Shown: positions 5,326 through 27,352 of the stretch, in pieces
Layout: each line of letters begins with the position of its first letter
Position numbering within the stretch: position 1 is the first letter of the stretch
Assembly (NCBI RefSeq): GCF_000801105.2
Contig: NC_079517.1
Coordinates: 9,052,001 to 9,116,000 of the forward strand
Length of the DNA stretch: 64,000 nt
Source: Raphanus sativus
Taxonomy: Eukaryota; Streptophyta; Magnoliopsida; Brassicales; Brassicaceae
Direction: 5' to 3'
Program-made: the position numbers and the translations under genes
The notes under the pieces: model-generated
Told to the model about the DNA's origin: nothing
The model's input: the letters and a program-made list of their open reading frames with translations, nothing else
Database searches by the model: none

Positions 5326-7225
5326 ATGGATAAAGGCTTCTCTCCCGTCGGTCTAAGAGTTCTTGTGGTTGATGACGACCCAACATGGCTCAAGATTCTT
5401 GAGAAAATGCTAAAGAAGTGCTCTTACGAAGGTCTCTATCTAATGTTTTTAGACTTATTCAGAATCCACCTGAGATGTCTCCTTAACTTCCCTCTGCTTT
5501 TTGAATTAACTCTGTTACAGTCACTACATGTGGGTTAGCTAGAGAAGCTCTGAGGCTGCTGCGGGAGCGTAAGGACGGATATGATATCGTGATCAGCGAC
5601 GTCAACATGCCTGACATGGACGGCTTCAAGCTCCTTGAGCACGTTGGCCTTGAGTTGGACCTCCCTGTCATAAGTGAGACTTCTCTACAAGCAGATGTCT
5701 AATAAATGAACAAAAACGTTTGCTTCTAACTTCGTTGTTTTTTGTTAAACAGTGATGTCAGTGGACGGTGAGACGAAAAGAGTGATGAAAGGTGTGCAGC
5801 ACGGAGCGTGTGATTACCTGTTGAAGCCGATAAGGATGAAGGAGCTGAAGATCATATGGCAGCATGTTCTGAGAAAGAAGCTTCAAGAAGTGAAAGACAT
5901 CGAAGGCTGCTATGATGGAGGAGCTAATTGGTTCACCGGAAACGATGAGACGCATTATCTTGGAGGAGGTGAAGATGTTTCTTTTGGGAAAAAGAGGAAA
6001 GAGTTTGACTTTGAGAAGAAGCTTCTTCTTCAGGATGAGAGTGACCCATCATCATCATCATCTTCCTCCAAGAAAGCCAGAGTTGTTTGGTCTTTTGAGC
6101 TTCATCAGAAGTTTGTCAACGCTGTTAACCAGATCGGTTGCGATCACAGTAAGTACGTTGGGGATACTTTCAGTTTCTTTCAATATCCCTCCCTTTATCC
6201 CGTCTTCTTCATAGAGACTTTCTCTTCTTGTGTATGGCAGAAGCTGGTCCAAAGAAGATATTGGACCTCATGAATGTTCCATGGCTCACTAGGGAAAACG
6301 TTGCTAGCCACCTCCAGGTAAAAACTTTACCTTCTCGTTAATCCAAGTGTAGATTAAGCTTTTTGTCACTTTGTATTTTTCTGTTTTGTAGAAGTACAGG
6401 CTTTACCTGAGCAGATTGGAGAAAGGAAAGGAGCTAAAGTGTTATTCTGGTGGAGTAAAGAATATGGATTCACCTCCAAAAGATTCCGAATTTACTTCAC
6501 GCCACCAAAGCCCTGGCAAGAACAACAGCTATGCATTCTCTGGAGGCAGTTATAAAGCAGAGAGTGATCCAAAGCAACTTGCTGCATCTTCAGTGTCTGA
6601 CCCCAGCAGTGATGTTCATACGCCTCCTCCAAAAGCGAAAAAGACGCGTATAGAATTTGATCCTCCCATTTCTTCAAGTTGTGCGTTTGACTCTCTCCTT
6701 CCCTGGGAAGATGTTCCAGACCCACTTGAATCAAAGCACCAGATTCTGTATCAGAGCAGCTTTCTCCAGCAACAACCATTGTTACCAAGTCAAACTCCCT
6801 TTGTCATGGAAAAGGAAATGAAGCCTTCTTATGAGACTTGTGTGAATGCGGATGAGTTTCTCATGCCACAAGATGAGAACTCTACTGTGATCCTTCAAGA
6901 TCTACACTTGTGTGCTCCTCCCTCTGCCATGAAGCTGCAGGAGTCAAGCTCAAATGTAACCAACGATACAGAGTCGATTCTGAGAAGCTTGAACTGGGAA
7001 CTTCCAGAATCAAATCATTCTGGTTTTATAGACACTGACTTAGACTTCAGTTGGCTTCACAACGAGCATTTTCTTGCAAACACCTCCGGGAACTTCCAAA
7101 ACTTCCAGTTTCAAGATTACAGTTGTAGCCCATCTCTCCCATCCGAGCTCCCACCTCACCTTTGGTTTGGAAATGACCCTGACGAGTATACCCTCATGGT
7201 AGACCATGGTTTATTCATATCTTGA
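5326..7225 (+). CDS. ARR11: Type-B two-component response regulator ARR11
   Basis: Nuclear transcription factor of cytokinin phosphorelay signalling. Five exons were read from splice sites: 5326-5431, 5521-5673, 5753-6148, 6241-6317 and 6392-7225. They give 521 residues, the length I recall for Arabidopsis ARR11. The receiver domain (about residues 8-125) has the VVDDDP acidic pocket, the phospho-acceptor aspartate in [11 protein letters not shown] and the switch lysine in [24 protein letters not shown] start and an [18 protein letters not shown] end mark the GARP/Myb-like DNA-binding domain, at about residues 185-250. The remaining C-terminal half is acidic and glutamine/serine-rich, as in type-B activators, and ends in VDHGLFIS. 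Nothing looks broken. Its tail faces HHL1. Orthology to AT1G67710 rests on remembered sequence and on the collinear neighbours. Confidence 0.95.
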
Positions 7226-8199
7226 ACTTGCTCCATTAACTTCTTTCCCTATATTGGTCGGTGTTTTGCATAAAGATTTTGTGGGTATACCTGAAAATAA
7301 TCTTGCTTTACCAAGAACTTTCCATGATCGAATGCATGTACAATAATCCATGAGTGTCATAGTCTAATTACACCACAATGATAAAGACCACATGTTTCAT
7401 ACTGTCGCTTAAGATCTTCAAAGTGTCAAATTGCTTTCCCTTTCACGTGTTTCTGCTGTTGGTAGGAAAATACTAGACCTATCAGATGCCACCAAATCCA
7501 ACAAAATGGGAAACTAAACAGAGTTATGAACTAACTAACGTCTCCCACAAAGTGAATCCCATTCATGCATGCAATTGGTTGATTATCTGACTGAGCTCTA
7601 GTCAGATATGCAGCTAAAACATATTACAATGTTCAGAAAGTCAAATGTCGTACAGTAGTGTGCATAGAGCTTAGAGTTTTTACCAAGTGGAGCGATCAGG
7701 GAGGTCCTACTTTTTCACTGCAAATGGTCTCTGTTCTCCCTCTCTGCTGCCTACACAAAGTTTTTGAAGATCTCTATTCCACAGTTGATATGTAAGATTT
7801 CTTGGGAACGGTGAGAAAAGATTTCAAGTTTTCATGTACTATTATTTGACAATGACTAAGAAACGATTGAACTCAGAAAAGTTGTAACCAAACAGCTCTT
7901 TCTTTCAACAAATCTACACACACATAAGTTATATGTTACAAGAGATTTTGGAGAAACTGTTTCTCTCAGAGGTGTATAAAGAAAAATGTGCACAAAGTAG
8001 TGGACAATCTCGTCCTATCCAGTGAACTTCTGCATTCCATATCAAGTCGGTTGAGACATTAGGAATCAGCCCATCATGTGTCAATCGTTCAGCCTTGGGC
8101 CCTGGGAAATAATAGCATACATCACTTTGGAGAAAAAGACAGTAAAATCCTACTGAAAATGGAGAAAAGAAACATCTGATACCTGTTTACACTGTATAC
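7226..8199. other. Intergenic region between convergent ARR11 and HHL1
   Basis: About 1 kb between two genes whose 3' ends face each other. It should contain both 3' untranslated regions. No open frame, RNA gene or repeat family could be recognised. A GCATGCA palindrome-like sequence at 7565-7572 has no clear significance. Confidence 0.5.
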
Positions 8200-15139: not shown

Positions 15140-17445
15140 TTTCCTCTCTGCTATGCTATTATGCTTTTAGTGTGTTAGTGACCCTCTCTCTCGCTGATGG
15201 TCCGTCCAAGGCTGAACGTGAGACGGACGGGACAGACAATCTTCTCTGTGGACGCGTTAAATAATTTTGATAGTTTTCGTTCAATTTTGTAATTAATTCC
15301 AATATATATATCTATATTACTATTTGGGAAGCAAATTTGTTGTTTGTTATTTTTTCGTAATTTTAGATTTAATTATACTTTATACTAAATTATTAATTTT
15401 AATAAATAAATTTATTAATTTAGTTGATAATTTATCATCATCTTCAGAATAAAAAATTCTAACCATCGCATCATAGTTAAATTTATATTAGTAATTTAGC
15501 TGATAACTTATCAGCATCTTGAAAATATTTTTTTTTAAATTAATTATAATATCATATAAACACACACACACACTATATATATATATATATATATTTGTGT
15601 ATATATTATATTTGGTTTAGTAATATTAGACCGACTCTATTTTAATACATATCTTAAGATAAATTTCTTAAGAAAATTAAAATCACTTATTGTGATTATT
15701 TTTTTAAACAATTTGGCAAATAATTTAAAAATATTTATAATATTATTTGCAAAATTAATTTTTTGCTCTCAAATTAAAAATTGGTGTGTTTAAAAGTCTT
15801 TATTATCCTTAATAAATAATTAAATTAGATTTGTTCATATGATTCATCACTATCTAAAAATAATAATATAGATCATAATATATTTAAAATAAATATAAAT
15901 CTATGTATATAGTTTTATGTATCAATGAATGTTTTCAAGTTTATTTTATGCAATAAAAGATATTTTATTTAAAAAGAAACTTTATCGTATGTAAAATTTA
16001 ATATTTAATAAAATATTAAGTATTTCAAAATCAAGAAAATAATTTATTGGTTTTTGAATTGATAATATATCTACTTGGAATTTTTGCAAAGCTGTTAACC
16101 CCGCAAGTGCAAGCAAAATATCTAAAATAATCACAATTATAGTTTGTTTTGGGGAAAAATTGATACATTTTAATTTTAGTACAGCAGGCATGAGTTCACA
16201 ATGTGTATGAAAACATATTAATGGTTTTGGATGGATTTGGCAATTTTGAGAAAATTACAATCATATTTATAAGTTATTTTAAACAATATTTTACAAAAAG
16301 CCTTGTCCATCTATCTTAAGAAAATGTCATCGGCATAATTACAAAATACCGAAATACAGTCTACCAAAAGATGTCGAGGCAGATTATTTTCCTTGGATTA
16401 TGTGGTATAATAGAAACGGTAAAGTTTACAATAATAAAGATAGGAACCCCTAGGAAATCTTCCGTAAAACTGAGATTGAGGAAAAGCTTTGGAAGGAGAC
16501 ACAATTATTAATAGAAAAACCTTCTGGGTTACCTCAAGCGGTCCCTAATTTGTAATTTTTGGAATCGACCAGAGTTCGTTATGTAGATGGAGTTTGGAAG
16601 GAACAAGATGTTTTCACTGGTCAAGAATGGTATTGCAGACGAACGGATTCAGAAGATATCATGATGGGAGTAATGAATCTCCGACAAGCTTGCACGTGGT
16701 ACAAAATTATATGGCGGATAAACTTGCATGTGGTGCAAAGAATTTTCCTTCAACTATGTTATATGTCGATTCAGTACTTCCGGTCTGGTTCACTGGACCG
16801 ATAAGACGTCACTAGAATAGTTTATTGTTGTAAAAAAAAAGTCTTTCTCTTCTTGTCACTTGTTATTTTATTTTATTTTTTCAACGTACAGATCTTTTTT
16901 TCATTGTGATTTTGTGTTTTCCAATTTAATTTAAAATTTTGTTTTTTTTTTCACTTTGGCTGGATTTTATAACTTTGTTATTTTAGATTTTATCTATTTT
17001 TCTTTATATTTTAAAATATTGATCATGTATTTCCCTCAAGTGATGAACCGTAAGGATATTCACCACTTCTTTACGGTTCAAGCACAATATTCTCATTAAG
17101 TTAGATTAGATTTTAAAGTTGTTTAATAAAAATCATCCACAATTTTCAGATTCACCTAAAATCATATAAAAACTCTTTAAATATCAAATCACTTAAAATA
17201 TCATATTGAATACATTCCATTATCTTAATTTATAAAACACAATAAAAATCTACAATGGTTTTATAAAAATGATAACTTTCCAAAAATAGTATTTTAAAAG
17301 GTTTTTTTTAATACAGCTTATTAATTAAAAATTCTTAAAAAATTATTTTATCTTAATACATAAATCAAAATCCCAAATTTACAATATTTCTCTATAAAAA
17401 TCATAGCTTTTATTTATTTATCCATATATATATATATATATATAA
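15140..17445. other. AT-rich spacer with microsatellites and a LINE remnant
   Basis: This region lies between the oligopeptidase promoter and the Pack-MULE. It includes AC/AT microsatellites near 15560-15596 and 17424-17444. TTTATT-rich stretches elsewhere look like old insertions. Apart from the LINE fragment listed separately, no gene is recognisable. Confidence 0.5.
16300..16815 (+). pseudogene. 3' fragment of a non-LTR (LINE) retrotransposon, RNase H-like region
   Basis: Translation in one frame gives PWIMWYNRNGKVYNNKDRNP, then KTEIEEKLWKETQLLIE, then VRYVDGVWKEQDVFTGQEWY. The first piece resembles the linker ahead of the RNase H-like (RVT_3) domain carried by many plant LINEs, and the last resembles that domain's opening, usually VDGSWK...D.FSGQGW. 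Stop codons interrupt the frame after DRNP and after AVPNL, so the copy is dead. No reverse transcriptase remains upstream. A short A-run at about 16831-16839 follows and may be the remnant of its tail. The family call is from remembered motif patterns. Confidence 0.6.
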
Positions 17446-17577
17446 GGGGAAATTTTATAAATACACTTTTATTGATACCACTAATCAACTATACCACTAA
17501 TCAAAACACATTTTCAAAAATACCACATTCATTAATATGTGAATTACTAGACTGCCCTTACCTTATTTTCAATTCAT

Positions 17578-18027
17578 CATTTTCTCGAACAAGGAGCAGC
17601 TCTCCCTTCACCCTCTTCTTCTTCCACTTCCTCTTCTCATCTCAGCAACCGTCACCTCCACCGGCGGCGGAATCGGCTCCCGATCTATGACTACTAGTCG
17701 CACCTTCTCTGACTATGGGCCGATCGGGTCCGAGAGCTTCGGAACGGGATCCTCTGTCCCGTACTCGTCAGAGGAGCTTCTCAGCGAGCCTGTGGGGGAG
17801 AATATCAGCTCTGAGCGGGATAGTATCTCCGTCACCATTCGTTTTCGACCATTGAGGTATATAAATAGATCTGATCTTCGTAATACCAGATCTATTGGAA
17901 GTTCAATTTATTGGGATTTCTGAAATTGATTCTGATTGCAGCGATAGAGAGTATCAAAGAGGAGATGAAGTTGCTTGGTACCTTGATGGCGATACTATGG
18001 TCAGGCACGAGTACAACACTTGTTCAC
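17578..18027 (+). pseudogene. Captured N-terminal fragment of kinesin KIN7D (MKRP2-like)
   Basis: The frame from 17687 reads MTTSRTFSDYGPIGSESFGT and then SSERDSISVTIRFRPL. After an intron-like gap with AG/GT borders, SDREYQRGDEVAWYLDGDTM continues at about 17940. These pieces closely match the start of the Arabidopsis kinesin-7 family protein At4g39050, including the intron inside the first motor-domain strand. Upstream, SRTRSSSP (near 17585) and TSSSHLSNR (near 17626) from the same N-terminus appear in different frames, so at least one frameshift is present. The motor domain stops before the ATP-binding P-loop, so no working motor can result. The kinesin identity comes from memory of the family sequence. 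Confidence 0.75.
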
Positions 18028-18138
18028 TCTCTCACACTCTGCGAGAGAGGAGGATGCGAGTGGGTGAGAAATGCAGATGCTTTATACTTTGATTCAAGAC
18101 TGTAAAATGCAGTTACAATATAGGCTGGCGGCAGTATA

Positions 18139-18573
18139 ATGTCAGCTCAATCAGGTTTTGTAGATACAGCCAAGTCTTTCCTCTGTACAGTTTTGAAATG
18201 CGGATTGGTCCTTACTGTGTATAGCCACAACATACTCATCAACAGGTTCTGTCTAGCTGGCTCCATCGGAGAAGCTTTGGAGTTAGCTGGTGATATGAAT
18301 ATCAAGCATGGAGTGGAGCCTGATAATGTGACGTACAATATCCTTGCGAAAGGGTGTCATCTCCTCGGTATGATCAAATGGGTTTGGGAGATCATTCAAC
18401 AGAAGCATTGGTACACAGGGGAAGGAATGGACGAGATGGAGTTAACAGAGGCAGAGAGCAACATGAATGATCTTGTCTCAGAGTACCAACAGTACCAAGA
18501 AACAACTGCAGATGAAGAAGGTGAGTACGAGGATGAGGAAGAAGGAGAATACCAACAAGAAGAGGAGTACTGA
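18139..18573 (+). CDS. Chimeric open frame: PPR fragment fused in frame to a beta-tubulin C-terminus
   Basis: An uninterrupted 144-codon frame. Residues 1 to about 84 resemble pentatricopeptide repeats: [17 protein letters not shown], then [11 protein letters not shown] and [14 protein letters not shown], close to the Arabidopsis PPR protein At1g13630 as I recall it. From about residue 89 the frame reads [13 protein letters not shown] and [13 protein letters not shown], then an acidic tail, which is the C-terminal helix and tail of a beta-tubulin. The fusion point is near 18400. Nothing shows that it is transcribed or translated. It lies inside the Pack-MULE just after the kinesin piece. Whether it is a new gene or only captured debris cannot be decided from sequence. 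Confidence 0.6.
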
Positions 18574-18829
18574 GAGTAAGCGTATGTGAACTACTCCCAC
18601 CCCCTTATAAAGCATATCTCTAGTTATTTGTTTTTATTAAGGAAGCCTCAACTACGAGTTGCAGGTTTATATTGACAAATTATGGATCCTGCTTGACTTA
18701 TGGTGTGCTGTTTGTGTACTTTAATTTGGGATTATAAATTTTAACAAGCAATTATTTTCATAGGGATTCTTAGAACATTCCAAGTATGCAGCTGGAAACT
18801 TCGTATTCTAACAACTTCCCCATCACCAA

Positions 18830-20790
18830 GGCTTTATAAGGATTATAAATACTTTATAAATGTATATAAATCATTTTTAAAGATTTAGAAATCATTTATA
18901 AACCTTAAGAAACTCTTAAAAACTTTATAAAGAATTATAAAATATTGACAAACTTTATAAAATATATTTAAAGTTGGTTGTTGGCTGTTGTTTATAAAAA
19001 AATTTATAAGAGTTTATTAAAACAGTCTATAAGGATATGTATAACAAACTTGAAGTTATTATTCTACAAGGCTTTTATAAGGATTATAAATAAAGGTTTA
19101 TAAAACCAATCATATGGATATATGAATTATTTTTGTATATAAATCATTTATATGAGTTTATAAAACCATTTATTAATTTTATAAGAGCTTATAAAACTTT
19201 GTATCAACCATCTATAAAGTTTAAAAAACACATATAAATATTTATATAACTATTTAACGGTTTGTAAAACTATTTAGAAGGGTTTATAAACAATTTACCA
19301 GAACTTATAAGCGATTTATAAAAATAAGGCCTTATAAAAAGTATAATTCAGTATTGAGATGATTTAGCATTGAGAGATATTTGGGGGTTCTGAATTTTGA
19401 TCCGTGTGCGTCCATCATCGTTCCGTCGGTTTATAAGGTTTATAAAATTTATACACCATTTATAAATAATTTATAAGGGTTTATAAATAGTTTATAAATC
19501 AGTTCATAGCCTTTTTGAAACTAAAATCAGTTTATAAATAATAATAATTCAACATAAAACCCCGAAAATTACCTTATAAACCCTAAATCAGTTTATAAAA
19601 TAATAAATCAGTTTATAAACTCTTATAAATCAATTTATAAAACCATCTCCTACACGCCGTGTTGATTCTGCTTGCCTTCTCGCCATTATTAGGATATCCC
19701 AGAAATGTTCATTTAACATTTGGTCGTGGGAACCCGAGTCTTTATTGGCTTAAGCTTCAAACCAAGACTCTCCTGAGACAGAAGCTCCGGTGAAATTCAT
19801 GAGGCTTCATGTTCTGCAGGAAGACAAAGCATATCTCAGTTAGATACTCTTTAATGTCAGAAAGTCAAAAACTACAAATCTAACCTCTGATCTCGCAGAA
19901 AGAACATCTTGAAACTGCTTTGTAGCTCCCGTAAGTTTTGCTTAAAGTCATCCCAAAATATTTATAATGGTTTATAAAAATTTATAAAGGGTTTAGAAAA
20001 CCACTTAAACAGTTTTAATGGGTTTTGAAAGAGTTTATATATGGTTTATATAAAATTATAAAGGTTTCTAAAATAATATAAATATTTATATAACTATTTA
20101 CAAAGGCTTATAAAACCATTTATGAACCATTTGTAAAGTTTATAAGAGATTATAAAACCTTGTATCAACCTATTTAAAAGGGTTTGTAAAACTATTTACA
20201 AGAAAATTATGAAAGCTTATAAATAATTTATAAGAGGTATGTATACTATTAATAAGAGTTTATAAAAATGTTATGAAAGCTTATATTCAATTTATAAGAG
20301 GTATTATTAGAATTGTATAGGTTTATAAATAATTTATAAGAGGTATTATTATAAACCTTTAGAAATTATACATATATAATTCCTTACAATTACAAATAAT
20401 TTATAAACCATTATAACTAATATATAAACATTTTATAAACCATTATAACAAATTTATAAACATTTTATAAAGGTTTATAAAATATTTAAAAAGGTTTATA
20501 AAACTATTTACAAGAACTTATAAGATATTTATAAGAGTTTATACATTTATTTTAAAGTGTTTATAAATTAATTTACAAGGTTATATATCTATTTATAAAA
20601 GTTTATAAATCTATTTATAAGGGTTTATTCCAAAGATTGTAAGAATTTAATAATCTTCATAACACAATTTATAAGAGTTTATAAATCAATTTATAAATAA
20701 GTTAGAAGACTTTATAGATCATTTATAAATTCTCAATTCTTTTCTCGCCATCTTAGAATTTTTGTAAGAATTTATAAATGATCTAAAATC
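18830..20790. repeat. Dense block of TTTATAA/TTATAAA motifs
   Basis: For roughly 2 kb the sequence is packed with the self-complementary core TTATAA, usually as TTTATAAA, TTTATAAG or TTTATAAC. In the densest lines (such as 19441-19500) there are five or more per 60 bases. The spacing is irregular, so this is not a simple tandem satellite. The block is interrupted at about 19640-19960 by a captured syntaxin fragment and continues afterwards to near 20790. It lies wholly inside the Pack-MULE. I know of no named repeat family that fits. Confidence 0.85.
19735..19965 (-). pseudogene. Captured fragment of a plant syntaxin (SYP31/SYP32-like)
   Basis: Minus-strand reading from about 19940 gives GATKQFQDVLSARSE, then a donor GTTAG, an intron of about 70 bases ending TTCCTGCAG, and an exon beginning NMKPHE. 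The Golgi Qa-SNAREs SYP31 and SYP32 have an ATKQ..DVL..R(S/T)ENMK.HE segment with, I believe, an exon junction at the same place. After NMKPHE the match stops (FHRSFCLRR), so only a fragment was picked up. The retained intron argues for DNA-level capture. Confidence 0.6.
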
Positions 20791-20982
20791 TCTATGCTAA
20801 AGGCCACGATAAGTAAGATGTTAAATAACTAACCATTGATTTGCATATAAACAAAATTAAGTCTCATGACCAATATCATAAACAACAGCGAACGCAGAGA
20901 AACACTACATATTAGTTAAAGTGATATCATATTGTCTCCACAGATATAAGCGAAAGCAAGACGCTAAACATCATTCCTTCCA

Positions 20983-21790
20983 TCAGTCAACCACAGTACT
21001 CTCTTTTCTGGCCTTCTTGGTGATGAGGATAAACTCAGTGGGTTTGATGAGCCTGAAGGTACACCTGTCACCAACCTTCAAAGGGAACTCTCTTGCCAAT
21101 CTACTCCATCCACTTGAGAAGACTGTTCGATTCTCCCTCACCAAGCAAAGCACGTTCCATGAAGACTTCCTTTTTGAGTGATTGATCGTGTACTCCATAG
21201 ACTCACTCGGGATATGATCCTTTTCAAACACCCTCAGACAACTGATACCAAGACAAAGAAGAAGCAGATATTCACATGTCAGAAACTGTATAGAATACTT
21301 GTTGAATTTCTTTAAATATTACCAAGAACTTGAGGTATGATTTCCTTATGGTGATTTCGAACTCTGGAACACCATTTTTCTTGATCTTCTTCTTTTTTCT
21401 TGAATGTTTTGAGTTTCTCAGCTTTCTTCTTTCTGCCTCTCGATGATTCATCTACTTCCTTCACCACTTTCTTGCTCTTCTTCTTCTTGGAGGATGTTTT
21501 AGAAGCCTCAGCTTTCTTCTTTGTGGTTTCAATCTCAACTCCGTCCACAGACTTACATGCTTCATCTTCCTTCTTCACGTCCTTGTAGCTACTCTCACCT
21601 TCTTCTTTCTTTATGCCACCTGTTTACATCATCATCAAATTAGCAAAAAAACATTCTTCCTCACAATCTACTCTGTTTCATTGAAAACAAAATGCTTACT
21701 GAAAGGAGTCGTTGTAGGATGTTTGCGTGGTGCGACGATCTCCTTGCCACTCGGCTTGTACATGTTGACGTTGAAGCGCATTAGTACAGT
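20983..21790 (-). pseudogene. Captured B3-domain (REM-type) transcription factor segment
   Basis: The minus-strand frame ending at 20983 reads LRVFEKDHIPSESMEY, then LVRENRTVFSSGWSRLAREF and PLKVGDRCTFRLIKPTEFIL. This has the core features of a REM-family B3 DNA-binding domain: a GW..F/A pair, then LK.GD.C.F.LI and a closing hydrophobic strand. Upstream (21578-21312) a lysine-rich linker carries KKKKSKKVVKE and a closing NHHKEIIPQVLG. Before that, about 21770-21710 reads YKPSGKEIVAPRKH, resembling the end of an earlier B3 domain. Splice junctions could not be joined in one clean frame between the linker and the last exon, so the copy may be decayed. It lies antisense to the kinesin/PPR/tubulin pieces. 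Confidence 0.6.
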
Positions 21791-21833
21791 GTGAGTAAAG
21801 GTAACGACCTCGTTTCACCCAAAGCATTGTCGC

Positions 21834-22328
21834 TCACAAACTGGCTCTGTAAGCATTGTCGCTCACAAACTGGTTCTTAAACATAACCTTCCTGTCCCAT
21901 GTTTCTTCTCCACATCCATCGTAACTCGACCTTCTCCTCTCTCTCTCTCCAATCTGGTTATCTTCAAGTATCACTATAATCCTGAGCCACATTAATAACC
22001 CAATCCAAACTTTCCAGGCACCACTTCTAACAAATCGTTGACTCCTCTGTCGATACACCAAGTAAATCCAAACAGATCTCCCACTGAATAGAAGAAAAAT
22101 CATACCTTTATTATCCAAGCCATCATCACTTGAAGACCCAAGATCACATGTATCTGTGTAGATTGTAGATCGTAATATCTCCCAGCCCCTATCAATCCCG
22201 ATCTTTTTCATATTCCCCTGCAATCCAATCAGTTCTGATTGATCCCCTCGGATCATCAGAGTTGGCTTCTCAGACGAACACGTTTGCTGAACCAACCAAG
22301 CCTTCCACGAAGATGAAACAGATTGCAA
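21834..22328 (-). pseudogene. Unidentified 164-codon open frame near the right end of the Pack-MULE
   Basis: A minus-strand frame reading SWKAWLVQQTCSSEKPTLMI, then NMKKIGIDRGWEILRSTIYT and TCDLGSSSDDGLDNK, followed by a GTATGATTTTT that could be a splice donor. The rest of the frame looks like intron sequence rather than protein. I do not recognise the family. The first 75 residues have protein-like composition, so this is probably another captured exon. A tandem partial duplication of the AGCATTGTCGCTCACAAACT segment occurs at the end (about 21823-21841 and 21850-21868). Confidence 0.35.
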
Positions 22329-22793
22329 AAGAGATGCAGAAACGAAGCCAAAAAGCTATGGAGGTGGTTATAATGATTCGGCGGCGACGGAGGCGTTCAC
22401 CAGGTGGAGACAACGACGACTTCTCCATCTCCTTTGATTAAGCTAGGGTATATTAGTCTTTTACCTATTGATATTTTAAGTGTAAAGTTGGTTAGTGTAT
22501 TTTTGAAAAGTGGTACTTTGAAAGTGGTATTAGTAGCAATTTCCCTGTATATAATCGAGAAAAACTTAAATAATCACATTCGTAATTTCGTATAATATGT
22601 TCTACACCTACAAGAACCACTACAAAGACTCACTGAATCTGGATAATACCATAGGCCCAATTAAAAAGCCCATGGGTATCCTCTTCGACAAATCTTAAGC
22701 AGTCATCCATACACATTCAAGCCGAAAGAAAATGCAGAAAACCCTTCTCTAGCCTCAATCACTGTCTTCTCCGATAGAAAAAAGAAATCCACG

Positions 22794-25511
22794 ATGGCTC
22801 CTAAATCGAAAGAGAAACCGAAAACCCCAACATCCTCCCAGCCTCCTCCCGCGATCGAAGATCTCTTCACCACTCTCGATAGGCACATCCAGCGATCTGA
22901 ATACGAACAAGCCGTCAAGGTCGCTGATCAAGGTATCCAGATCCTCAAACCTCCCTATGAATCTTAAAATTTTATAATGGTGGAAATTGAGATTCCGACT
23001 GTTTTTTTTTCAGTTCTGTCGATCGCACCTGCCGATGAGGACGCGATCCGATGCAAAGTCGTGGCTCTTGTCAAAGACGATAAGATCGATGATGCTCTCT
23101 CCCTCATTCACTCCTTCCATAAGCTTCCCATCGATCTAGGGTTTCAAAAGGTCACTTCTCTCGTACACTTATCCAGCTACATTTTATTTTACTGGAATGT
23201 GACTGTTTAGTTGAGATCTATAAAGTTACTGTTTATAAAAAGCATCAGAATGAATATTAGAAAGCTCTAATGGTTTCTCTATTGCTTTGAATAGGCATAT
23301 TGTTTATACCGTCAAAACAAGCTAGACGAGGCTTTCGAGTGTTTGAGAGGTCGAGAGAGAGACTCAGAGACTTTGCTTTTGGAGGCTCAGATTCTCTACC
23401 GTCTGGGGAAAACAGATGCTTGCGTTGATGTGTATCGGAAGCTGCAGAACTCACAGATTGAGACGGCAGAGGTCAATTTTGTAGCGAGTTTGGTTTCGGC
23501 TGGTAAAGCGTCTCAGGTGAAAGGAGCATTGGAGTCTTGGAGGATCAAACCTACTAGTAGCTTTGAGCTGGCGTTTAACACTGCTTGCTCTTTGATTGAA
23601 AACAACAACTACGCTGATGCTGAACAGCTTCTGCTAGCTGCAAGGAGGTATGTCACAAAGTTATATTCACGTCTCATACACTATTGCTAGAGGGTTGCCC
23701 ATTTCTTTTAGTTGCTTCGCTTGACACTCCTTTAGCTAGGTCTAATTGTAGTATATAGGATAAGTAATGCGGTTAATTAGTTGTTAATACTGAACACTAC
23801 TGCATGGTCTCGTTTCTTTATTGTCTTATAACCGCTACCAATTGTTTTCTTTGAATAATCACGTCAATCTATATAAAAGGTTTCCTTTCATCTGTATCTT
23901 TATCAACACTTCAAGTACATTGTTCATTTGACTACTGATTGTGCAATATACTCTTCACTGATGAAAATACTGTTGGGTTGAGACAGAATTGGTCAGGAAA
24001 CCCTCACGGATGATGGCTTTGCTGATGAGGATATTGAGAATGAGCTTGCCCCCATTGCTGTCCAATTAGCATATGTCCAACAGGTATTTTGTGCTGATTG
24101 TATTAGACTTAACTTCCTGTTAGGATATCTTCCGGTCGTTTGTGACAAAGTTTTTCGCATCAGGTCCTTGGACAAACTCAGGAATCCACCAGCTCTTATG
24201 TAGACATCATTAAACGAAACCTGGCCGATGAATCGTCACTTGCTGTTGCTGTGAACAACCTTATTGCCTTGAAAGGTTCCAAAGATGTTTCTGATGGTTT
24301 GAGGAAGCTTGATCGTCTCAAGGATAAAGATTCTCAAAATTTTCAGCTTTCTCAAACACTTGATGCTAAGCTTTCACAGAAACATAAGGAAGCTATATAT
24401 GCTAATCGCGTCCTTCTGCTCCTCCATGCAAATAAGATGGATCAGGTCCTTTTTTAACTCAAAAATCTTGTTTGTTCCTATCTTATTTCTTCTTTGCATA
24501 TTTGGCTTGACCTGTTAAGAGAATCTTTTTCCACAGGCACGAGAACTTTGTGCTGCACTGCCGGGCCTCTTTCCTGAAAGTGTCAATCCTGCATTGCTTC
24601 AAGCTGCTGTCTTAGTGAGAGAGAACAAGGCTGCCAAAGCTGAAGAGCTTCTGGGACAGTTCGCAGTAAAGTTCCCGGAAAAATCTAAGTCGATTCTCTT
24701 GGCCAGGGCACAAATTGCTGCTTCGGCCAGTCATCCTCACGTAGCAGCAGAGTCCCTGTCCAAAATAACTGATATCCAGCATTTCCCTGCTACCGTTGCC
24801 ACCATTGTCGCACTCAAAGAGCGAGCTGGGGACAATGATGGTGCTGCTGCTGTTCTCGACTCAGCGATTAACTGGTGGTCAAATTCGATGACTGAGAACA
24901 ATAAGCTTGGCATATTGATGCCGCAGGCTGCTTCCTTCAAGCTCAGGCATGGCCAAGAAGAGGAGGCTTCACGGTTATACGAGGAGATTGTGAAAAAACA
25001 TAAAAGCACAGATGCTCTGGTTGGTCTTGTGACCACACTTGCTCGTGTCAACGTCGAGAAAGCAGAGACTTACGAGAAACAGCTAAAGCCGTTGCCGGGG
25101 TTGAAGGCTGTTGATGTGGATAACCTAGAAAAAACCTCTGGTGCAAAACCCATGGAAGGCGCTGCCGCAGCAGCTGCTTCAGCGATGCAGGAAGAAGTGA
25201 AGAAGGAGAAGGCAAAGAAGAAGAGGAAGAGAAAGCCAAAGTACCCCAAAGGATTCGATCCGGCAAACCCGGGACCACCTCCGGACCCTGAAAGGTGGCT
25301 TCCGAGAAGGGAAAGGTCAAGTTACAGACCCAAGAGGAAGGACAAGCGTGCAGCTCAGATCCGTGGATCGCAGGGCGCAGTGACAAAGCAAGACAAACAA
25401 GAAACAGCTCCTTCGACCTCAAAGTCAAACCAAGCGACCACTAAGAGTGCAGCCGCTGATCATTCAAAGCCTTCTTCCTCTAAGGCCTCAAAAAAGAAGT
25501 CTAGGAGATGA
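22794..25511 (+). CDS. SRP72: Signal recognition particle subunit SRP72
   Basis: RNA-binding TPR protein of the cytosolic signal recognition particle, which binds SRP RNA with SRP68 and helps target nascent secretory proteins to the ER. Six exons (22794-22932, 23014-23150, 23295-23647, 23987-24083, 24164-24445, 24537-25511) give 660 residues in a continuous frame. The N-terminal part has tetratricopeptide-like helices (IEDLFTTLDRHIQRSEYEQA, AYCLYRQNKLDEAFECL, ILYRLGKTDACVDVY). The C-terminal region has the SRP72 RNA-binding motif KYPKGFDPANPGPPPDPERW, followed by LPRRERSSYRPKRKDKRAAQ. The end is lysine/serine-rich. Collinear with AT1G67680. It starts about 250 bases right of the Pack-MULE, so the element sits in or next to its promoter. 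Confidence 0.96.
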
Positions 25512-26425: not shown

Positions 26426-27352
26426 CTAAAAGAACTCGACATGATCAGCTATTTCTCTGCAAACAAGTTTTGATTCCGCAGCCAAACTTATGCTTTTAGC
26501 TATAGCAAGACCAGTAAGCTTATGCGTAGACGTCGGCTCATACTTCTTCACCTCTGCATCACCCTTCCCTGACAGCAAAGCCCCCCTCGCAGGAATCACA
26601 TTCTCCCACCAGAACTCCCTCAACACCTCGTAAATGATCCTCCAGTAGCTTCTGTCTCTCATCACTCTGAACACAGAGCTCCCGTTCAGCGTCCAGCAGT
26701 ACAAGTCCACCCACTCACGGTCCATTATCTCCATCTGGCCCTGCATCTGAGGCATGTAATAGAACGGCACTTTGGACCAAGGCAAGACCGTTTCCGTCTT
26801 CCCTTTGTTATACGGACACTTCACTTCCAGAATCCCAACATCGAGAACCCCATCCGGAGAAGCACCAAGCCAGTGAAACTGCTCTTGTGAGTGAAGAGCA
26901 AACCCCATCGAGCCAACCTCGCACCCCATGATCCTCTTGTACCTCTCTATCGCAGCCGATTCCATCTGCACACCCCAGTTCATCGCAAACCTCGCGGAGT
27001 CCTCCACCACTCGCGGCGACTCCGAGTCGTACACCTTCTCGTGCCAGAGCTCGGAGCGGCGGTTCTTCTTCCAGAAGCCGAGCGCTGTGCTGAATGTGCT
27101 CGTGGTCAGCTTGTCTTTCCTTAAGGCGAACCATTCTTCTGATTTCTGAGGGATGTCGGATGGGGAGAGGTGGCTTGAGACAGCTAGTGGAGAAGAAGCA
27201 CGGGGAGGAGCAAGGACAAGGGGTAAGCTTGTCTGAGAGAGGACTTGTTGTAATGCAGTGGAGGAAAAGGACAGCGAACTGCTTCTGTTCCTTAACTTTA
27301 GTCTTGGTTTAGGGATAAGAGTGTTGAACCCGGAAACTGAACATGTCCTCAT
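26426..27352 (-). CDS. YqaJ/lambda-exonuclease-like PD-(D/E)XK nuclease, organelle-directed
   Basis: A 308-residue protein of the restriction-endonuclease-like fold, probably AT1G67660. Residues 1 to about 65 are rich in S, R, P and L with few acids, like a chloroplast or mitochondrial transit peptide. The domain begins IPQKSEEWFALRKDKLTTST, the conserved YqaJ opening. NWGVQMESAAIERYKRIMGC follows, then the catalytic core GASPDGVLDVGILEVKCPYN: D in SPDG, then E and K in LEVK, all present. The end HVEFF is the stop region. Such enzymes are phage-recombinase relatives, and a DNA repair or recombination role in organelles is inference. Other start sites are not excluded, but no intron is needed. 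Confidence 0.88.
   Translation of the reverse strand: MRTCSVSGFNTLIPKPRLKLRNRSSSLSFSSTALQQVLSQTSLPLVLAPPRASSPLAVSSHLSPSDIPQKSEEWFALRKDKLTTSTFSTALGFWKKNRRSELWHEKVYDSESPRVVEDSARFAMNWGVQMESAAIERYKRIMGCEVGSMGFALHSQEQFHWLGASPDGVLDVGILEVKCPYNKGKTETVLPWSKVPFYYMPQMQGQMEIMDREWVDLYCWTLNGSSVFRVMRDRSYWRIIYEVLREFWWENVIPARGALLSGKGDAEVKKYEPTSTHKLTGLAIAKSISLAAESKLVCREIADHVEFF

Follow-up and report, generated by a model that had tools for sequence, protein, structure and literature searches.

Pack-MULEs that carry pieces of more than one host gene are commonly pictured as the outcome of repeated captures by a single element. According to one review, cargo from several loci is present in about a fifth of the Pack-MULEs of rice (PMC12030055). 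For animal Pack-TIRs the FoSTeST model has been described, in which a switch of template within repetitive sequence of a TIR transposon creates chimeras able to transpose in turn, and its extension to plant Pack-MULEs is called worth exploring by its authors (PMC8277862). Rearrangements tied to repeats have been described in MULEs with multiple long terminal inverted repeats (TIRs), in an account that leaves the role of recombination open (PMC3310237). The VANDAL elements of Arabidopsis have degenerate TIRs as a trait (Sasaki 2023 PMC10398659), and their VANC proteins are described as undoing silencing and as binding tandem noncoding arrays of short motifs (Hosaka 2017 PMC5735166; Sasaki 2023 PMC10398659). 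The element considered here lies at 17446-22545 of a 64,000-nucleotide stretch of the radish genome, referred to as the window (contig C7:9052001-9116000). It is a real Mutator-like element, apparently non-autonomous, and a Pack-MULE with host gene pieces; the probability that it arose by recombination between two lineages of one non-autonomous Pack-MULE family is put at roughly 0.8. Its features are as follows.

17437..17445, no strand: left target-site duplication (TSD) TATATATAA, matching the right copy at 8/9 positions
17446..17585, plus: left terminus and imperfect TIR, about 72-85% identical to sister elements and 97% to L009
17586..18016, plus: kinesin fragment with 5' region, exon 1, intron 1 and part of exon 2, compared with L012 and L013
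18017..18132, plus: linker, also in L009 apart from a 14-base gap
18124..18570, plus: in-frame PPR::beta-tubulin open frame of 149 aa, stop to stop, open in L009 too
18133..18408, plus: PPR fragment, 96% to elements L010/L011 and 93% to genomic PPR loci, with a Pfam match
18405..18730, plus: beta-tubulin C-terminal tail and 3'UTR, 86% to L040 over 18405-18729
18605..19641, no strand: first TTTATAA/TTATAAA array, 49 motif starts with overlaps counted
18995..18996, no strand: switch point, where 97.6% homology to L009 stops within the array
19642..19960, no strand: spacer between the arrays, 89% alike in subfamily C over 19834-19940
19961..20778, no strand: second TTTATAA/TTATAAA array, 47 motif starts with overlaps counted
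20344..20345, no strand: switch point, where 97.5% homology to L037/L038 starts in the array and runs on to the 3' end
20924..21876, minus: B3 transcription-factor fragment, 86% to L039 over 20924-21847, with a Pfam match
21877..22387, no strand: cargo for which no source was identified, holding the predicted 'syntaxin' and matched by four family right arms
22388..22545, plus: right subterminal region and terminus, by comparison with family ends
22546..22554, no strand: right TSD TGTATATAA

Searches of the element's own genome (433 Mb in 6413 contigs, C1-C9 being 25.9-53.7 Mb and C10 0.16 Mb long) gave 23 elements in which both ends could be read, namely the window element and 22 sisters (L009, L010, L011, L019, L020, L022-L031, L033-L038 and L041). 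Nineteen of the sisters were found by similarity to window positions 17400-18400, outside the array, while a search with the right arm led to L037, L038 and L041; L018, L021 and L032, with no right end seen, were left out. L021 and L032 are left halves of subfamily C followed by long frames that are presumably CACTA-like. The original prediction of Mutator-type ends is borne out by the sisters, 15 of which have a perfect 9-bp TSD (L009, L037 and L038 included); six of the 23 elements, among them the window element, have a TSD with one mismatch, L026 has three mismatches, and for L041, whose left end has decayed, no TSD was found. At 2000 random places given the same offset freedom, a perfect duplication arose in 0.6% and one with at most one mismatch in 3.3%. 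The window element begins with GGGGAAATTT at 17446 and ends with CAATTTCCC at 22545, and the predicted 8/9 duplication, TATATATAA on the left and TGTATATAA on the right, sits at the family end positions and adjoins a TA run. Among the window's other 9-mers, 0.13% come within one mismatch of TATATATAA, and one of 171 sister TSD pairs differs by no more than one base; the target preference is itself A/T-rich, since one of 19 sister TSDs is one base away from TATATATAA. The terminal repeats, predicted to match, do form a pair, albeit an imperfect one, being identical at 58 of 74 positions in a local alignment that outscores 100 of 100 shuffles. The TIR score lay above all 100 shuffles in 19 of 21 elements tested, the exceptions being L030 and L009, the left end of the latter being incomplete.

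Pfam revealed no transposase domain in eight frames of the window and ten of the sister elements, and inspection by eye found no autonomous partner beside the family-end matches listed (150 of 1015 MULE transposase candidates scored). More than 80 of the 150 scored transposase matches share an identical score of 86.2 bits, many of them in frames of 822 or 828 aa, and these are perhaps a large young MULE family. The window had no Rfam match at gathering scores. Some members of the family have moved of late: L037 and L038, 4376 bp each and identical to the base, occupy two sites of contig C5 where each has a different perfect TSD, which is very recent transposition in the radish genome, and subfamily C is also recently mobile, its copies L019, L024 and L022 being 99.97-99.98% identical over their aligned parts (one difference in 4682 between L019 and L024). 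A probable start codon lies at 22794, about 250 bp downstream of the window element, and its gene carries the SRP72 domain in a later frame (24594-25511). Further along the window, an open frame on the minus strand at 26426-27352 has a YqaJ-like viral recombinase domain (E 7e-24).

The cargo was predicted to come from at least five host genes, whose parent loci might be sought. A search in the same genome confirmed four of those named at 86-93% (kinesin, PPR, beta-tubulin and B3/REM), whereas the syntaxin had no host match. The matched loci would be parents or close paralogues of the cargo, each a putative donor as judged from similarity. The kinesin piece is 86% identical to L012 over 17668-18016 (81% to L013), with a further 24 bp exact to L012 at 17586-17609, and since intron 1 is kept it was copied from genomic DNA. 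Pfam assigned no family to it, and its kinesin identity rests on L012, further frames of which contain GVTSSGKT and NLIDLAGSE, taken here to be kinesin motifs; the family name KIN7D is likewise our assumption. For the linker (18017-18132) no separate parent was found among 44 matches, with 40 of 514 candidates scored. The PPR piece is 93% identical over 18154-18406 to three genomic places that share one identical sequence. Pfam matches were obtained for the PPR and B3 fragments, PDB sequences match the PPR piece and the tubulin tail, and the B3 fragment, which we presume to be REM-like, has 24 bp exact to L039 at 21853-21876. Seven places (two on C486, and C127, C102, C125, C3589 and C5:5169930) carry the same 67-68-bp tubulin tail at 90-93%, perhaps as another repeat family with tubulin sequence. 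Between the window element and L009 the PPR::beta-tubulin frame has seven nonsynonymous changes and one synonymous (dN 0.020, dS 0.012), and selection on it was dropped as a proposal, seven changes against one giving no sign of constraint.

The syntaxin capture was rejected, as 21870-22400 matches only four places in the genome, all of them family right arms; its 41-aa frame gave the same four and one match at E 0.185, with no host match below E 0.18. A cytoskeleton or trafficking theme had been noted in three of the sources, as perhaps due to chance, and has lost one of its members with the syntaxin; it is best read as chance. The search for sisters that had been proposed did find elements with other cargo. 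The sister L028 has a 221-aa open frame with a CCDC47 match (6797-7459, E 8e-45) and a frame with a dehydrogenase E1 match (5709-6044, E 3e-6), and a frame of L019 resembles the DUF3730 (Focadhesin/RST1) profile at E 1.7e-4, under the profile cut-off. The number of sources had been thought exceptional: four of them hold, but a multi-locus share of about a fifth in rice, as given in the review, makes such cargo less of an exception (PMC12030055).

The most surprising part of the element, of which the original prediction makes no mention, is an array shared by the family members read. About 2.2 kb of the window element (18605-20778), without any recognisable gene, consists of TTTATAA motifs and a spacer. 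Whatever their cargo, all 23 elements have such an array, with 47-106 matches to TTTATAA plus TTATAAA in each compared with 2.5-7.5 expected from base composition, the 8-mer TTTATAAA scoring twice. In 20 elements the density of motif starts was 15.35 per kb in the array, 1.71 per kb in the sister flanks and 0.95 per kb in the rest of the window, and TTATAAA/TTTATAA was the most over-represented 7-mer in the arrays of eight out of eight subfamilies. Distances between TTTATAA copies in eight elements peak at 10-11, 21-22, 32, 42, 53-54 and 64 bp, a phase of about 10.6 bp, or about one turn of the DNA helix (fitted periods of 10.40-10.75 in ten elements). Titles among the matches listed for TTTATAA and Mutator name no such array, and TTTATAAA is absent from the matches listed by another literature search, neither of which shows the array to be unpublished.

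What the array is for, if anything, divides into two readings. It is a serious possibility, short of an even chance, that slippage of a 10-11-bp monomer produced the array as a neutral side effect and that the array has no role. Slippage alone yields periodic arrays, yet this one recurs in all 23 elements examined, whose cargo differs, and its phase exceeded every one of 300 jittered controls in nine of ten elements, L033 (subfamily F) failing. Two of six control words had enough pairs to be informative: TATATAA (27 pairs) showed no best period near 10.6, but AATTTAT (64 pairs) was also periodic at 10.60 with a mean cosine of 0.52, so that it is the repeat unit as a whole that is phased. The core contains no cytosine on either strand and thus escapes methylation-linked mutation, which favours neutrality; even so, its sites differ at 11.3%, the lowest value of 58 A/T-only 7-mer classes of at least 150 sites each (median 21.2%), and these likewise lack cytosine. 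That ranking comes from 149 alignments between the arrays of eight subfamilies; the alignments share ancestry, and the counts are therefore not independent. Of 12 close pairs, ten show a lower divergence in the core than in the spacer as a whole; in the remaining two, L019/L020 and L019/L027, the core differs as much or more. The other reading, put forward tentatively and by analogy, is that some protein of the transposon system, be it a partner of the transposase or an anti-silencing factor like VANC, binds the phased array along one face, and that the array, which members must keep for this, doubles as a shared recombination zone for the trading of arms. If this were true, one and the same DNA would act both as a module for binding or anti-silencing and as a hub of gene shuffling.

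The two arms of the window element that flank the middle of the array lead to different places in the genome. The left arm, with kinesin, PPR and tubulin, matches L009 on contig C4 up to 18995 at 94-98% (94% over 17483-18640 and 97.6% over 18627-18995, with a divergence of 1.1-7.6% per segment); L009 has about 1 kb absent from the window, at window position 18640. L009 has a perfect TSD of its own, TATATTTAA, and its left end is split by a LINE-like insert, on the far side of which both the TSD and the initial 51 bases (96%) are preserved. That insert (L009:1-9001 with L017) has poly(A), and its frame is presumably RNase-H-like. The right arm of L009 differs from that of the window element and bears 44 residues of an NADPH-P450 reductase, matched by PDB 5gxu (E 1.9e-13), to which Pfam assigned no family. 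The right arm of the window element, 20345-22545 with the B3 cargo, matches L037 and L038 at 97.5% over 2211 bp, and these two have a left arm and first array different from those of the window element, their left end being 80% alike. Both switch points fall inside the central AT-rich TTTATAA array, the L037 homology starting sharply at 20345; a TTTATAA-like word stands at each but is weak evidence, since such words fill much of the array. The stretch between them (18996-20344) is a patchwork of matches at about 73-93%. Not all switches are in arrays: a further right-arm copy, L041, becomes homologous only from 21589, a position within the B3 cargo, and between subfamilies D and E nothing beyond the first 424 bp is shared. 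The single capture history of the original prediction is not supported, the left and right arms matching different element lineages.

The recombinant could have arisen in a few steps. Host pieces would first have been copied into separate elements, most likely when gaps left by excision were repaired. At a later round of repair or replication, the template may then have been switched between two elements during the copying of their similar arrays, which would join the left arm with kinesin, PPR and tubulin to the B3-bearing right arm, and the joined product would have inserted upstream of the probable SRP72 start codon. Binding by a protein of the transposon system would be the reason why the array is kept. 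Since a single genome still contains the joined form together with elements of both parental types, the route of assembly, separate captures followed by arm exchange, is readable.

An improbable alternative is a single lineage that captured the fragments in turn and from which L009 and L037 descend, each with one arm later replaced. Several captures in one Pack-MULE are already known, and the three shared by the window element and L009 must have been together before the two parted, but two separate replacements would be needed, each ending in the array, in the face of a complete different left arm with perfect TSDs in L037/L038 (left end 80%) and a complete different right arm with a perfect TSD in L009. 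Still less credit is due to an artefact in which two different elements were joined by the assembly inside the low-complexity array. The AT-rich, repetitive nature of the array and a TSD of 8/9 next to a TA run would suit such an error, and a misassembly there keeps a small probability; against it, near-matching 9-mers flank the element exactly at the family end positions, compared with the 0.13% background, and the arms are about 2.5-6% from their nearest relatives and so are not collapsed copies of those. Nested insertion, with the right half as a second element inside the first, is barely credible: that half does have a right terminus and its own cargo, but no left terminus lies near 20345, the left end of L037 is about 2.2 kb before the part shared with the window element, and a search of the interior with family ends, bearing on the separate nested elements that the original prediction had considered, gave two weak matches (33 and 46 bp, E 0.004-0.009), both within the array.

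Whether arms have been traded across the family was judged from ten representatives. Left-end and right-end identities show no correlation (r -0.20, P 0.91; -0.01 with 110-bp ends), yet within a single end the odd columns do agree with the even ones (r 0.87 and 0.67), and the first and second halves correlate at r 0.66 for the left end and only 0.25 for the right. In AU tests each end rejects the tree of the other (7e-5 and 6e-6). When the window element, L037 and L041 are removed, the left-right correlation is 0.23 (P 0.24) and the AU values are 0.006 and 0.029. In that set odd and even columns of the right end correlate at only r 0.25 (P 0.14), so that this end holds little signal of its own. 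With L037 kept and 200-bp ends the AU values are 0.069, which is not significant, and 0.006. Exchange is thus firm for the window element, and for the whole family, the signal being weaker without these three, it is only suggested. The PPR cargo of subfamilies A and B, 3.6% apart between elements whose left ends are 77% alike, also points to exchange. Fourteen sites separate the four element PPR copies from genomic PPR sequence, and the copies may instead stem from separate captures of one donor gene missing in this genome. The best reading of the family is of non-autonomous MULEs that capture gene fragments and trade arms between elements.

Two questions become testable via the array common to the members read: are Pack-MULEs of plants built by switches of template from one element to another, and do gene-carrying elements that are non-autonomous retain target arrays for anti-silencing or transposase proteins? 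With the VANDALs, as described in the sources cited, the family has in common degenerate terminal repeats, here detectable, and short noncoding tandem motifs that change fast between relatives, and its array resembles the targets of VANC-type anti-silencing. The VANDAL motifs are given as YAGTATTAY or AGTTGTCC/AC, whereas that of the present family is TTTATAA and host fragments are present; the likeness is an analogy, because the motif differs and no VANC gene was identified. The published VANC motifs were rejected as the make-up of the array, TTATAAA/TTTATAA being the dominant 7-mer in all eight subfamily arrays as judged by top word. The FoSTeST case, as reported, joined a host gene and a Foldback element in a fly, whereas here two transposons are joined in a plant (PMC8277862), and the MULEs with multiple long TIRs are described as having duplicated TIRs, in contrast to the exchange of arms with different cargo in the present family (PMC3310237). 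To the Pack-MULEs of rice, maize and Arabidopsis the window element is alike in its Mutator-type ends, 9-bp TSD, want of a detected transposase, intron-bearing host pieces and, as happens in some of them, an in-frame fusion. It differs from them in that its arms are traced to two donor-type elements and in the phased array found in the 23 members read.
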